Shown piece after piece: positions 1,751 through 61,860 of a stretch of DNA of 64,000 bases. Each line of letters starts with the position of its first letter. Position 1 is the first letter of the stretch. The DNA is from Thermocrinis albus DSM 14484 (GTDB taxonomy: Bacteria > Aquificota > Aquificia > Aquificales > Aquificaceae): contig NC_013894.1 of NCBI RefSeq assembly GCF_000025605.1, positions 109,529 through 173,528 on the forward strand. The letters run 5' to 3'. The position numbers were made by a program, and so were the translations under genes. Under the pieces are notes generated by a model, which was not told the origin of the DNA, ran no database searches, and worked only from the letters and a program-made list of their open reading frames with translations.

Positions 1751-2633
1751 TAGGTGCACGAACATCTAACTCCTGCGACAGTTTCACCACAGCCATCACT
1801 GTATGTACACCTTCCACCACCTGACCTATCTTCTCAAGGGCAGAAGACAAGCTGTGTCCCTTACCCAACAGATAACCTAAGGTGTAGTTACGGGATTGGG
1901 AAGATGTGGCCGTAAGAACAAGATCCCCCAATCCCGAAAGGCCGTAAAAGGTCTCTCTCTTGGCACCCAGCTTTTCACCTAGCCTCACCATCTCCGCTAA
2001 ACCTCTGGTTATGAGGGCTGCGCGGGCGTTGTCACCAAAACCAAGACCGTCGGAAACTCCACACGCTATGGCCACCACGTTCTTGAGAGACCCTCCCAGC
2101 TCTACACCTACCAGATCTGTAGATAGGTATACTCTGAAGTAGGGAGAGAAAAAGAGGCTCTGCACGTACCTGAGAGATTCTTCCTCTTCTCCTGCGAGAA
2201 CTACCGCTGTAGGAAGACCTTTGGCTACCTCTCTGGCAAAAGACGGACCTGAGAGACACATAACTTCACAATGGGGAGATATCTCCTTCAGTATCTGGGA
2301 CACACGCAGAGAGGTTTCCACCTCAAGACCTTTGGAAGCACTCACCACCTTCTTACCGTTCAGGTCCACATCCTTCAGAGCTTCCCTTATACTCTGGACA
2401 GGCAAAGCCAGTAAAAGAACCTGGGAGAAACCGATAACCTCCAGCAGCTCTGTGGTGGCATCTATACCCTTCGGTGTATCCACATCTTCCCAGTAAGGGT
2501 TCTGACCTCGCCGTAAACTCTCTACCACCTCACTCTTTATGTCAAACACGAGGACCTGATGTCCTTGTCGCGCCAGGTGCAAAGATAAAGCGGTTCCCCA
2601 CCGCCCCCCACCTAAGACACCTATGCGCGCCAT
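1653..2633 (-). CDS. gpsA: Glycerol-3-phosphate dehydrogenase [NAD(P)+]
   Basis: Reduces dihydroxyacetone phosphate to sn-glycerol 3-phosphate in the cytoplasm, giving the backbone for phospholipids. The 326 residues open with the nucleotide-binding GGGRWGTALS. They contain GPSFAREVA and the catalytic-lysine region ELGGSLKNVVAIACG, and a GLSGLGDLVLT segment typical of the family. Length is normal. A minus-strand TATAAT ends 8 bp before the ATG and no Shine-Dalgarno is seen, so the start is chosen as a leaderless one. The divergent neighbour is the LolD-like ATPase. The 3' end overlaps the zinc-ribbon gene by 98 bp. Confidence 0.95.
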   Translation of the reverse strand: MARIGVLGGGRWGTALSLHLARQGHQVLVFDIKSEVVESLRRGQNPYWEDVDTPKGIDATTELLEVIGFSQVLLLALPVQSIREALKDVDLNGKKVVSASKGLEVETSLRVSQILKEISPHCEVMCLSGPSFAREVAKGLPTAVVLAGEEEESLRYVQSLFFSPYFRVYLSTDLVGVELGGSLKNVVAIACGVSDGLGFGDNARAALITRGLAEMVRLGEKLGAKRETFYGLSGLGDLVLTATSSQSRNYTLGYLLGKGHSLSSALEKIGQVVEGVHTVMAVVKLSQELDVRAPISYAVYRLLQGEDPLQVAHQLLMNPPPHREFE

Positions 2634-2641
2634 AGCTTACC

Positions 2642-2647
2642 ATTATA
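2642..2647 (-). promoter_or_regulatory. -10 box of gpsA
   Basis: A minus-strand TATAAT stands 8 bp before the gpsA ATG, which places the transcription start at or next to the start codon. The divergent LolD-like gene has only a weak CATTAT in the same 18-bp gap. Confidence 0.6.
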
Positions 2648-2651
2648 TGCT

Positions 2652-3332
2652 ATGAAGGAGCCTATCTTGGAGCTGAGGGAGGTTTACAAAAGGGTAGGTG
2701 AAGAACACATTCTGAGAGGTATAAACCTCACCATCTATAAGGGAGAGTTTGTAGCTCTCGTGGGACCATCCGGCTCTGGAAAGAGCTCCCTCCTCTACAT
2801 AATGGGTCTTCTTGACTCACCCTCAGAGGGTGAAGTTCTCTTCCAAGGTGAGAAAGTGGACTTTCGGAAGGAAGAAAAGCTCTCCTTTCTTAGGAACGTG
2901 AGGATAGGTTTCGTCTTTCAGTTTCACTACCTTATACCCGAGCTGAGTCTTTTGGAAAACGTCATGCTGCCCGCCCTCAAGCGGGGTATGAAGCAACGAG
3001 AGGCTAAGGAAAAGGCCCTGTACCTTCTGGAGAAGTTGGGACTGAAAGGAAAGGAGCACAGAAAACCTTACCAAGTTTCGGGAGGAGAACAACAACGCAC
3101 CGCCATAGCCAGAGCCCTCATCAACGATCCCTCTCTACTCTTAGCAGACGAGCCCACCGGTAACCTGGATTCTACCAACACCTCCGTAGTTATGGACATA
3201 TTCCGTAGGATAAACGCAGAAGGTACCACAGTGGTGATGGTGACCCACGAGATGGAGTTGGTCCAAAAGGTGGGTAGAGTGGTGGAGATGAAGGACGGTA
3301 GGTTAGTCCCCTTCCCATATGATGGATCCTAA
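2652..3332 (+). CDS. lolD: ABC transporter ATP-binding protein, LolD/MacB type
   Basis: A 226-residue ATPase of the LolD/FtsE/MacB group. Walker [10 protein letters not shown] lies near residue 40, the signature VSGGEQQR near 143 and Walker [11 protein letters not shown] near 163, followed by the H-loop VTHE. LolD energises the LolCE complex that releases lipoproteins from the inner membrane, and this organism has lipoproteins and lipid A. No LolC/E-type permease is adjacent, so the partner must be elsewhere and the exact transporter is not proven. The 3' end overlaps yggS by 30 bp in convergent orientation. Confidence 0.8.
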
Positions 3333-3980
3333 CCTAACTATGGTGGCTCCTTCCTCTATAGCCACCTCAAAGTCGTGGGACATTCCCATGGAGAGGTGAG
3401 GAAGTGCAACGCCGTACTCTCTTTCCAATCTCTCCTTCATCTCTCTCAGACTTCTGAAGTAGGGCCTAACCTGGTCAGGATCTTCCTTGTAGGGAGGTAT
3501 ACACATAAGACCCAGCACGCGGATGCCCTCCAGAGAGAGAACGTACTGGAAGAACCTATCCAGTTCCTGAGGAGCCACACCCCCCTTCGTCTCCTCCTCA
3601 CCTACGTTGACTTCTATAAGAACATCCTGCCTCTTACCGGCCTTTTTGGCCCTTGCATCTATCTCCTCCGCCAGACTGTTTCTGTCCAAGGAATGGATGA
3701 GTTCCACTTTCTCTATTATGTACTTTACCTTATTGGACTGAAGTCTTCCTATAAAGTGCCATCTTATGGGAAGAGAAGCCAGCTGCTCGTACTTTTTCAA
3801 AAAGTCCTGAACTCTACTCTCCCCAAAGATACTGACACCACACCCAAAGGCCTCCTTTATCTGGTGAGCGTCCGCATACTTGGATGCCACCAAAAGGGTG
3901 ACCTCCTCCTCCCTTCTTCCTGCCCTCTGACAGGCTTTATGTATTCTCTCCAAAACCCTCTCTATCCTCTCACATATCAT
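3303..3980 (-). CDS. yggS: Pyridoxal-phosphate homeostasis protein (YggS/PROSC family)
   Basis: A PLP-binding single-domain TIM-barrel protein that buffers pyridoxal phosphate. VASKYAD carries the Schiff-base lysine. [20 protein letters not shown] and [13 protein letters not shown] are family landmarks. The frame could extend 22 residues further upstream. The start MICERIER is chosen because it fits the family N-terminus and because a minus-strand TAAAAT lies exactly 7 bp before it. It is divergent from the molybdopterin-type gene with only 28 bp between the start codons. Confidence 0.92.
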
Positions 3981-3987
3981 GGAACTT

Positions 3988-3997
3988 ATTTTATAAT
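3988..3997. promoter_or_regulatory. Overlapping divergent -10 boxes, yggS / molybdopterin-type gene
   Basis: Minus-strand TAAAAT (3988-3993) is 7 bp from the yggS ATG. Plus-strand TATAAT (3992-3997) is 11 bp from the ATG of the gene at 4009. The two boxes share two base pairs, so the promoters cannot both be melted independently. No Shine-Dalgarno is seen for either gene. Confidence 0.55.
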
Positions 3998-4008
3998 TCT
4001 CTTCCCTG

Positions 4009-60335: not shown

Positions 60336-60345
60336 AATGGAGGAT

Positions 60346-60351
60346 ATTTTA
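60346..60351 (-). promoter_or_regulatory. -10 box of the ahcY operon
   Basis: Minus-strand TAAAAT, 10 bp before the ahcY ATG and just beyond the 3' end of the DUF177 gene. The predicted leader is about 3 bases. Confidence 0.5.
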
Positions 60352-60363
60352 ACATTTGCTTTC

Positions 60364-60843
60364 TTACTTCTTTAGCAGGTTTTTAAGGGATGCAAAGGGG
60401 CTTTCTTCCTCCTTTTGGTAAGGTATACCCTCACAGTTAGGATCACAGAGAGGCTTTGTGGGTATGCTCAGTATGATCTGCTCCCTCACCAGGGAGACAA
60501 GATCAAAGGCCTCTTCATCCTCGTAGAAAGACACGTTAAGGTCCTGTGGTCTTATGTGTATCACGTGCTCCTCTGGATATCTTTCCAACCTTATAACTTC
60601 CTGTCCACTTATATCCTTTTGATACACTTGAAGACATCTACTACACTCCAAAGTAACCTCACCCTGTATGTGAAGATGCAGGCGATAACCACCCCTTTCT
60701 TTTGTTATCTCCACCTGCACCTCCACAGGCTTGGTTATCTCTCCTATGTCTGCAGGCAGTTTTATCTCGGAGGGCGAGAGTCTATAGTAGCCGGTGAAAC
60801 GATTGGACCTTTTAAAAATTTCCTTCAGGTTTAAAATCACCAT
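60364..60843 (-). CDS. DUF177 family protein (YceD-like)
   Basis: A 159-residue member of DUF177, the family of E. coli YceD, which is linked to large-subunit rRNA or precursor processing. A CSRCLQVY segment in the middle and [10 protein letters not shown] near the C-terminus give the four cysteines of a likely metal site. [28 protein letters not shown] links strand and first Cys pair (quoted in part as EVTLECSRC). In many bacteria the gene precedes rpmF and fabH/plsX. Neither is present here. TATTTT 7 bp before the ATG supports the start. Confidence 0.82.
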
Positions 60844-60849
60844 AGATGT

Positions 60850-60856
60850 TAAAATA
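60850..60856. promoter_or_regulatory. Overlapping divergent -10 boxes, DUF177 / yvcK
   Basis: TAAAATA gives plus TAAAAT (60850-60855), 12 bp before the yvcK ATG, and minus TATTTT (60851-60856), 7 bp before the DUF177 ATG. No Shine-Dalgarno on either side. Confidence 0.5.
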
Positions 60857-60867
60857 AACCCAACATC

Positions 60868-61860
60868 ATGAGAGTGGTAGCGGTAGGAGGTGGTACCGGA
60901 TTATCTACTCTTTTGAGGGGGTTAAAGAGATACACAGGTGAACAGATAAAGGATCTTTCTGCCATAGTGACGGTGGCGGACAGTGGTGGGAGCACGGGGA
61001 GACTCAGGAAAGCTTACAGCATACCGGCACCCGGTGATATTCGCAACTGCCTGGTGGCTCTCTCAGAGAGTGAGGAGATCCTTCAGGCCCTCTTTCAGTA
61101 TAGATTCAAAGGTAGCGAACTTGATGGACACGCCTTCGGAAATCTGTTTCTGGTGGCTCTCACCGACATAACAGGTAGTTTTATGTCCGCTATACGTATA
61201 GCCTCCCAGATACTGAGAACGAAGGGAGAGATAATTCCCGCCACGTTGGAAAACGTGAATCTCTGTGCCAGTTTCGAGGACGGAACGGTCGTCAAAGGAG
61301 AGGAAGAGATAACCAAGTACGGAAGGGAGAACAGAAAGAGAGTGAAGAAAATCTGGCTGGAGCCACAGGATGTCAAACCACCCATAGACGCTATAGCCAA
61401 GATAGAAGCCGCCGACGTATTGGTGTTTGGTCCGGGGAGCCTGTTCACCAGTATACTACCCAACCTCCTCATAGAGGATCTGAGGGATGCCGTCAAAAGG
61501 AGTTTAGCGCTGAAAGTGTTGGTGGTGAACGCCATGACCCAACCTGGAGAGACAGATGGATACACAGCTTACGACCATTACAGGGCCTTTCTGGAACACT
61601 CTTCCCTGGAAAAACTGGACGTGGTAGTAGTGAACACTCGTATGCCCTCCAGTCATGTCCTAAAAAGGTATGTGGAGCAAGGCCAAGAACCTGTAGTACC
61701 CGATGTAGCTAAGATAGCAAAAGAAGGTGTTCTCGTTTACGCAGAGGACCTAATAGGAGAGAAGGACGATTTTGTTAGGCACGATCCAGAAAGACTGGCG
61801 GATCTTTTGATAAGGGTGTACCAGCAACGTGTATCCAATGACGTACTTTATGAACTTTGA
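60868..61860 (+). CDS. yvcK: YvcK/GlmR family protein (CofD-like)
   Basis: A UDP-GlcNAc-binding protein that in Bacillus steers carbon to the envelope via GlmS and is needed for gluconeogenic growth. [34 protein letters not shown] and [13 protein letters not shown] are diagnostic. [13 protein letters not shown] and [16 protein letters not shown] follow. The 330 residues match the family. glmS is also in this window, though 24 kb away. The end overlaps nadB. Confidence 0.92.

Follow-up and report, generated by a model that had tools for sequence, protein, structure and literature searches.

Predicted leaderless genes and facing -10 boxes in short divergent spacers of Thermocrinis albus

A 64,000 nt stretch of the Thermocrinis albus DSM 14484 genome (the window) was analyzed together with a 740 kb sample of the same genome, and many genes in both were found to carry a TATAAT-like hexamer a few base pairs 5’ to the start codon. 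We consider it very probable from the sequence that these hexamers are σ70-type -10 boxes and that transcription begins at the first base of the ATG, or 1-2 bases from it, to give leaderless mRNA; the use of one near-symmetric -10 by both genes of a divergent pair is plausible. Leaderless expression is the best reading because the distance from box to start peaks at 7-9 bp, the box and the Shine-Dalgarno (SD) sequence exclude each other, the base at -1 is a pyrimidine, a minority of genes has a -35 element at 17 bp, and the box persists in orthologues. An earlier note on the window had proposed leaderless expression, which was partly supported, and had considered it undescribed in Aquificales, which did not stand, since leaderless genes had already been predicted by Zheng et al. 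(2011; PMC3160421) for 2 of 5 genomes of Aquificae (20.7-32.4% of genes), with Aquifex aeolicus VF5 as a figure example. The core claim of leaderless genes is not new for the phylum Aquificae; the part not found in the literature searched is its extension to short divergent spacers with facing boxes. The earlier note made no mention of -10 boxes that overlap in very short spacers between divergent genes.

The 740 kb sample, to which the counts below refer unless otherwise indicated, contained 741 genes called by a codon-model caller that was blind to the sequence upstream of the start. These genes comprised 186 divergent heads, 104 tandem heads with a gap of at least 60 bp, 59 tandem genes at 20-59 bp, 389 close followers (<20 bp), and 3 genes at stretch ends. 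The box was defined as TAHHWT unless TANNNT is stated, the gap was counted from the last base of the box to the start codon, and SD was scored when GGAG, GAGG, or AGGA ended 3-14 bp ahead of the start. Chance levels for box counts were obtained from 200 dinucleotide shuffles. The same code was run on six genomes of the same family (G003, G007, G009, G011, G015, and G016, with T. albus being G000), on G036 from another family of the same order, and on E. coli (200 kb), a Nitrospiraceae, and Thermus pTT27 as controls; the Nitrospiraceae was poorly called (coverage 0.755, only 21 close followers). The GC content of the window was 46.8%, and the published T. albus DSM 14484 genome has 1,500,577 bp and 46.9% GC (PMC3035279).

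The box was present at gap 6-9 in 75/186 divergent heads, compared to 11.4 ± 3.0 (maximum 21) in the shuffles, and the gap distribution at these heads peaked at 7-9. When only divergent heads whose called start was also the longest-ORF start were counted, the box was found in 60/127. SD was found at 39/186 divergent heads, and both signals occurred together in none of the 186 and in only 2 of the 389 close followers. Tandem genes at 20-59 bp had the box in 13/59 (shuffled 2.7, maximum 8) and tandem heads at 60 bp or more in 10/104 (shuffled 3.1, maximum 10), the latter having SD more commonly than the box (38/104). Among close followers, 44/389 had the box (shuffled 7.4, maximum 15) and 183/389 had SD. 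The box pattern is real; it is strongest at divergent heads, weak at long tandem gaps, and present at followers too. Leaderless mRNAs had been claimed as the rule at operon heads, with a positional peak expected for heads only. The first part agreed with the divergent heads and failed at the long-gap tandem heads, and the second was contradicted by the smaller but clear excess at close followers. Spacer length mattered at divergent genes, with the box in 43/68 and SD in 5/68 at spacers of 9-33 bp, and the box in 15/68 and SD in 26/68 at spacers >80 bp. Of 38 mechanically defined heads in the window, TANNNT lay 6-9 bp before the start in 14 and solely at 4-5 or 10-13 bp in 7; of the rest, 10 had SD and 7 neither. 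The box was thus the largest class among window heads, with exceptions, hence no strict rule.

The bases next to the start codon were informative on where transcription would begin. A pyrimidine occupied -1 in 84/98 box heads versus 58/99 SD heads, and purine at -1 amounted to 12, 13, 12, and 12% at gaps 6, 7, 8, and 9, respectively, versus 40% in SD genes. Since this level was constant over gaps 6-9, the signal keeps its place relative to the ATG rather than the box, and the pattern is as expected if transcription started at a pyrimidine/A step at the ATG. Followers behaved alike: 38/42 box followers without SD had the -1 pyrimidine versus 107/181 SD followers, which suggests that close followers with the box have leaderless promoters within the 3’ end of the upstream gene. 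The foremost alternative is that the promoters are real but yield very short leaders, with each transcript starting 1-8 nt ahead of the ATG; at 1-2 nt this overlaps with leaderless expression. It would suit the gap mode of 7-8 and the tail at 9-13, given that the peak in Thermus pTT27, from a leaderless lineage, is at 6. However, the -1 pyrimidine held in each gap class from 6 to 10 instead of moving with the box, and position -2 was rich in pyrimidines at gaps 8-10, as would be expected if the A of the ATG were the first base. We consider very short leaders unlikely, though with an appreciable chance. Leaderless mRNA, having neither leader nor SD, would have to be translated by the leaderless route, and T. 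albus genes with real leaders use an SD such as AGGAGG.

An RpoD-type sigma factor was encoded (match above the NCBIfam cut-off), and part of the box genes had a -35 partner. TTGACA with at least 5 matches and a 17-bp spacer was found in 8/140 box genes, compared to a mean of 0.56 and a maximum of 3 at control spacers (5-59 bp except 16-18). With at least 4 matches at 16-18 bp, the count was 26/140 versus a mean of 15.3 and a maximum of 22 in control windows. The -35 element is a minority feature of box genes. It bears on a second alternative, that the AT-rich stretch is no promoter and instead keeps the start codon free of structure or binds ribosomal protein S1, with the true transcription start further upstream. 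S1 sites could underlie an AT bias around -10 (PMC5397173, 2017), and an rpsA-like gene was present (420 bits, below the NCBIfam cut-off of 577). However, the signal was a positioned hexamer rather than general AT richness, as the excess over dinucleotide shuffles at divergent heads indicated (75 versus 11.4), a minority had the -35 partner at 17 bp, and the box was overrepresented in divergent spacers that leave no room for two promoters, each with its own leader. We therefore regard this alternative as improbable, and AT-rich background or S1 as the main cause was rejected by the shuffles and the positioned -35. As a separate observation, alignment of 117 box heads revealed G 4 bases before the hexamer in 43% and A 6 bases before it in 44%, positions that do not match the usual extended -10 TG.

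Divergent heads of the relatives were compared at gap 6-9 with control positions at gaps 22-25 and 28-31 (given in this order in parentheses). T. albus itself had 14 and 16 boxes at the control positions. The box was found in 45/108 divergent heads in G003 (8, 12), 16/66 in G011 (8, 5), 13/40 in G016 (2, 2), 17/34 in G015 (2, 7), 16/46 in G007 (2, 7), and 25/66 in G009 (6, 7). There was no excess in G036 (7/46; 8, 13), where 34/46 had SD, in E. coli (1/40; 0, 2), or in the poorly called Nitrospiraceae (2/68; 3, 4). Thermus pTT27 had TANNNT at gap 6-9 in 11/52 and none at gap 22-25. It is very improbable that the pattern is an artefact of start choice, even with a purpose-built caller, ambiguous starts such as that of rsmH, and a longer start available on at least one side in 13/34 short divergent pairs, because the caller ignored upstream sequence, longest-ORF starts agreed (60/127), glmS starts were fixed by a catalytic Cys, orthologue N-termini were concordant in the set used, and E. 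coli, Nitrospiraceae, and G036 gave no excess through the same code.

Orthologues were taken as reciprocal best hits whose alignments began at matching residue numbers no further in than position 3, which left 94/172 in G003, 39/75 in G011, 15/33 in G016, 12/54 in G015, and 11/29 in G036. T. albus box genes had the box, and no SD, in 14/19 orthologues in G003, 4/5 in G011, 3/4 in G016, and 2/2 in G015, and in G036 the box was found in 0/6 and SD in 4/6. Of T. albus SD genes, 5/40 had the box in the G003 orthologue, 2 of these with SD as well. The neighbour class was unchanged in 7/19 G003 orthologues of box genes and the gap was identical in only 2/14 kept boxes; with gap and neighbours mostly altered, the box was kept, or regained, amid changing surroundings.

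The glmS gene allowed the same comparison at a certain start, since the catalytic Cys of class II amidotransferases must follow the initiator Met. Matches were obtained in 41 genomes, 30 of which yielded a locus (20 in the family, 4 in family f2, and 6 in the sister family f3). The box was present at gap 4-11 in 18/20 family loci (11/20 at gap 6-9), a count that is partly non-independent due to the near-identical pairs G005/G006, G017/G024, and G015/G022, and the other 2 loci had SD. It was found in 2/4 loci of f2 and 0/6 of f3, the latter having SD in 3 and neither signal in 3. These f3 loci and the SD in 4/6 G036 orthologues suggest that both styles of initiation occur within the order. Divergent from glmS was engB in T. 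albus, peptide deformylase in G002, trmFO in G016 and G023, kdsB in G020, serS in G009, an unnamed ORF in G024, and thiC in G019, the start of thiC being uncertain as its family match begins only at residue 19-36; naming covered 7 of the 12 partner ORFs found beside glmS outside T. albus. Among the 13 family loci with such an ORF at ≤300 bp, 11 had a spacer of 17-43 bp to the nearest possible partner start, and 7/20 family loci had no divergent ORF within 300 bp. If the promoter is a few bases travelling with the start codon, re-pairing with new divergent partners would be possible, as glmS illustrates.

Short divergent spacers were common in T. albus. The start codons of 34/93 divergent pairs were 9-33 bp apart, compared to 0/54 in E. 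coli and Nitrospiraceae combined with the same caller (0/20 and 0/34, respectively; Fisher 1.8e-8). The annotation of the same 200 kb of E. coli holds one pair at ≤33 bp, coaE-yacM (24 bp), which the caller missed because yacM is a 45-bp ORF, below its limit. Among the relatives, short pairs amounted to 10/54 in G003, 5/33 in G011, 6/20 in G016, 3/23 in G007, 9/33 in G009, 1/17 in G015, and 1/23 in G036. T. albus is extreme in this respect, and the single pair in G015 means that leaderless genes need not bring many short pairs. Thermus pTT27 had 3/26 (17, 20, and 26 bp), the last being Thermus thermophilus cobT and a divergent phosphatase gene (26 bp between starts, 42511-42538). In T. albus, both starts were the longest possible in 21 of the 34 pairs, both coding scores were at least 20 in 27, both starts were ATG in 28, and the ATG-to-ATG distance was 18-23 bp in 17.

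The box was found at gap 5-10 on both sides of 16/34 short pairs, compared to 3.0 ± 1.5 (maximum 8) when shuffled. The two -10 elements of a divergent pair could overlap in one near-symmetric AT box that RNA polymerase might bind either way, so that a spacer of ~17-33 bp would serve both promoters and any -35 contact would lie inside the opposing gene. It is plausible that one -10 region is common to two leaderless genes at many short pairs. The broader proposal, that at many T. albus divergent pairs, and fewer in other Aquificaceae, one near-symmetric -10 gives rise to two leaderless mRNAs and lets genes re-pair without losing expression, is put forward tentatively, its chance being somewhat less than even. 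Up to 34/93 pairs are open to a shared promoter by spacing, and 16/93 have the box on both sides. Reciprocal 18-bp geometry was rejected as a single rule, as core offsets were spread from -7 to 18 over the 34 pairs, with 5 the commonest (8 pairs) and 2 the next (5 pairs). Offsets were scored from box gaps 4-11, thus leaving nnrD-carB (gap 13) and DUF177-yvcK (gap 12) unscored as offset 5.

Several findings weigh against leaderless expression or against a shared -10. Neither box nor SD was found at 72/186 divergent heads, and most box genes had no recognizable -35. The gap mode of 7-8 exceeds the 6 of Thermus pTT27 and the 6-7 of Deinococcus (PMC12340547) by 1-2 bases, and a 1-2 nt leader is therefore possible; at gaps of 10-13, the mRNA may carry a leader a few bases long. 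The -1 pyrimidine, clear in G000, G009, G011, and G016, was weak in G003 (61/92 box versus 76/151 SD) and absent in G007 and G015, and was rejected as a family-wide signature. The gap was mostly not conserved in the G003 orthologues. At short pairs, 14/34 had the box on one side only and 4/34 on neither, and the reciprocal -7T/-11A core TANNNTA was found in 11/34, versus 4.0 ± 1.7 in 500 shuffles, the highest of which reached 11 as well. Leaderless expression nevertheless remains the reading we favor, and we infer from the sequence where transcription starts, that the promoters act in one or the other direction, and by which route translation proceeds.

Warman et al. reportedly described bidirectional bacterial promoters in 2021. 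In the literature searched, which did not cover that study, no description of divergent leaderless pairs with a common -10 was found, and we make no firm claim of absence. Bidirectional promoters resemble the short pairs in that one near-symmetric -10 is read both ways, with 18 bp as the most frequent distance between the divergent start sites and 10 and 23 bp as further common values (PMC10268837, PMC12825309). They differ in that their starts are known from mapping and that the second RNA is in many cases a non-coding antisense transcript, whereas T. albus has genes on both sides, both of which, if leaderless, would start at the promoter edge, and is known here from sequence. A single leaderless promoter has been reported in the 108-bp spacer of M. 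tuberculosis lysG-lysE (PMC5648196). In Deinococcus-Thermus, a -10 directly precedes the ORF, as the box does here, and leads to leaderless mRNA, at nearly 1/3 of D. radiodurans genes, and transcript levels rise after the adjacent -10 motif in Deinococcus (PMC12340547). The gap there is ~6-7 bp and the motif was reportedly tested by experiment, whereas the T. albus box is TATAAT-like at 7-8 bp; the text of that paper has no words beginning with divergent or bidirectional.

The closest precedent is the TA-led class of Zheng et al. (PMC3160421), with TANNNT as the signal and TAtaaT in Aquificae, the same phylum, and with the box ~12 bp before the start across bacteria when measured from its first T. 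Their gene classes were derived in silico from 20 bp upstream, and in this study the signal was split by gene arrangement. Our results go beyond theirs in covering T. albus and six family genomes (not G036), in the use of start-certain and orthologous genes, and in the link to divergent spacers. The differential RNA sequencing study of A. aeolicus by Lechner et al. (2014; PMC4227106) did not contain the words leaderless, TSS, or UTR in its main text. A survey of initiation ranked Aquificae with the phyla in which de novo initiation makes much use of SD, but a gene was counted there only if the next gene upstream was at least 200 nt away (PMC6728339). This choice of genes may explain the discrepancy, since SD leads at T. 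albus divergent spacers >80 bp, which fits the long-gap gene class of the survey. For leaderless expression in a thermophilic order, a percentage computed in silico for whole genomes is hereby extended to an architecture open to testing, in which promoter, start codon, and spacer would be fused in ~20 bp, often facing two genes. If true, re-pairing via start-codon-borne promoters could help gene order change freely in the family, and the box could guide start-codon annotation in Aquificaceae genomes.

In the window, an Rfam scan at gathering cut-offs returned two tRNAs and no other match. With coordinates rechecked, the genes the earlier note had listed with a TANNNT box 7-8 bp or 9-13 bp before the ATG all had it near the gap given, except for rsmH. 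Three divergent pairs shared a heptamer read on both strands. Between engB/ysxC and glmS (21 bp between starts), TATAATA at 35117..35123 contained the glmS box TATAAT (35117-35122, plus strand, gap 8) and the engB/ysxC box TATTAT (35118-35123, minus, gap 8). Between nnrD and carB (26 bp), TATAATA at 42737..42743 contained the carB box TATAAT (42737-42742, plus, gap 13) and the nnrD box TATTAT (42738-42743, minus, gap 8). Between the DUF177/yceD-like gene (yceD match below cut-off) and yvcK (24 bp), TAAAATA at 60850..60856 contained the yvcK box TAAAAT (60850-60855, plus, gap 12) and the DUF177 box TATTTT (60851-60856, minus, gap 7).

Other divergent pairs had overlapping boxes. The start codons of gpsA and a LolD-like ABC ATPase (LolD model match below cut-off) were 18 bp apart, with overlapping -10 boxes at 2638..2647, namely TATAAT for gpsA (2642-2647, minus, gap 8) and TACCAT for the ATPase (2638-2643, plus, gap 8). 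The starts of yggS and a 498-aa gene were 28 bp apart (pair region 3988..3997), with TAAAAT for yggS (3988-3993, minus, gap 7) and TATAAT for the 498-aa gene (3992-3997, plus, gap 11). For glnE (name match just below cut-off) and the 139-aa gene, 25 bp apart (10919..10926), the boxes were TATAAT at 10919-10924 (minus, gap 10) and TATAAT at 10921-10926 (plus, gap 7), respectively. The rsmH box TATTAT (30434-30439, minus) had a gap of only 2 bp to the ATG at 30431 and would have one of 8 bp if the second in-frame ATG at 30425 were the start, so that its listing at 7-8 bp was not borne out for the called start; rsmH counted as an SD gene under the 4-mer rule. At 29559-30441, the called starts of rsmH and the divergent 381-aa gene were 9 bp apart, and the box of the 381-aa gene, TATCAT (30426-30431, plus, gap 9; pair region 30426..30439), fell inside the start of rsmH.

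The starts of argF and rtcB were further apart (58 bp), with separate boxes TATAAT (37818..37823, minus, gap 7) and TATATT (37853-37858, plus, gap 10), respectively. A 109-aa gene had TATAAT (23887..23892, plus, gap 10), 32 bp from the start of the divergent gene at 22584-23870. The trpB box was TATAAT (47513..47518, minus, gap 8), its divergent partner at 47563 having SD instead. The flgM-like gene (flgM match weak, below cut-off) had TATACT (25716..25721, minus, gap 8), dnaA had the -10-like TATGAT (54618..54623, plus, gap 11), and ahcY had TAAAAT (60346..60351, minus, gap 10). Three genes that had been taken as heads each follow a same-strand gene: tyrS by 19 bp (TAAAAT, 28132..28137, plus, gap 8), the 58-aa gene by 6 bp after the gene at 13541-14572 (TAAAAT, 13543..13548, minus, gap 8), and dmeF by 10 bp after the gene starting at 57185 (TAAAAT, 56688..56693, minus, gap 7).

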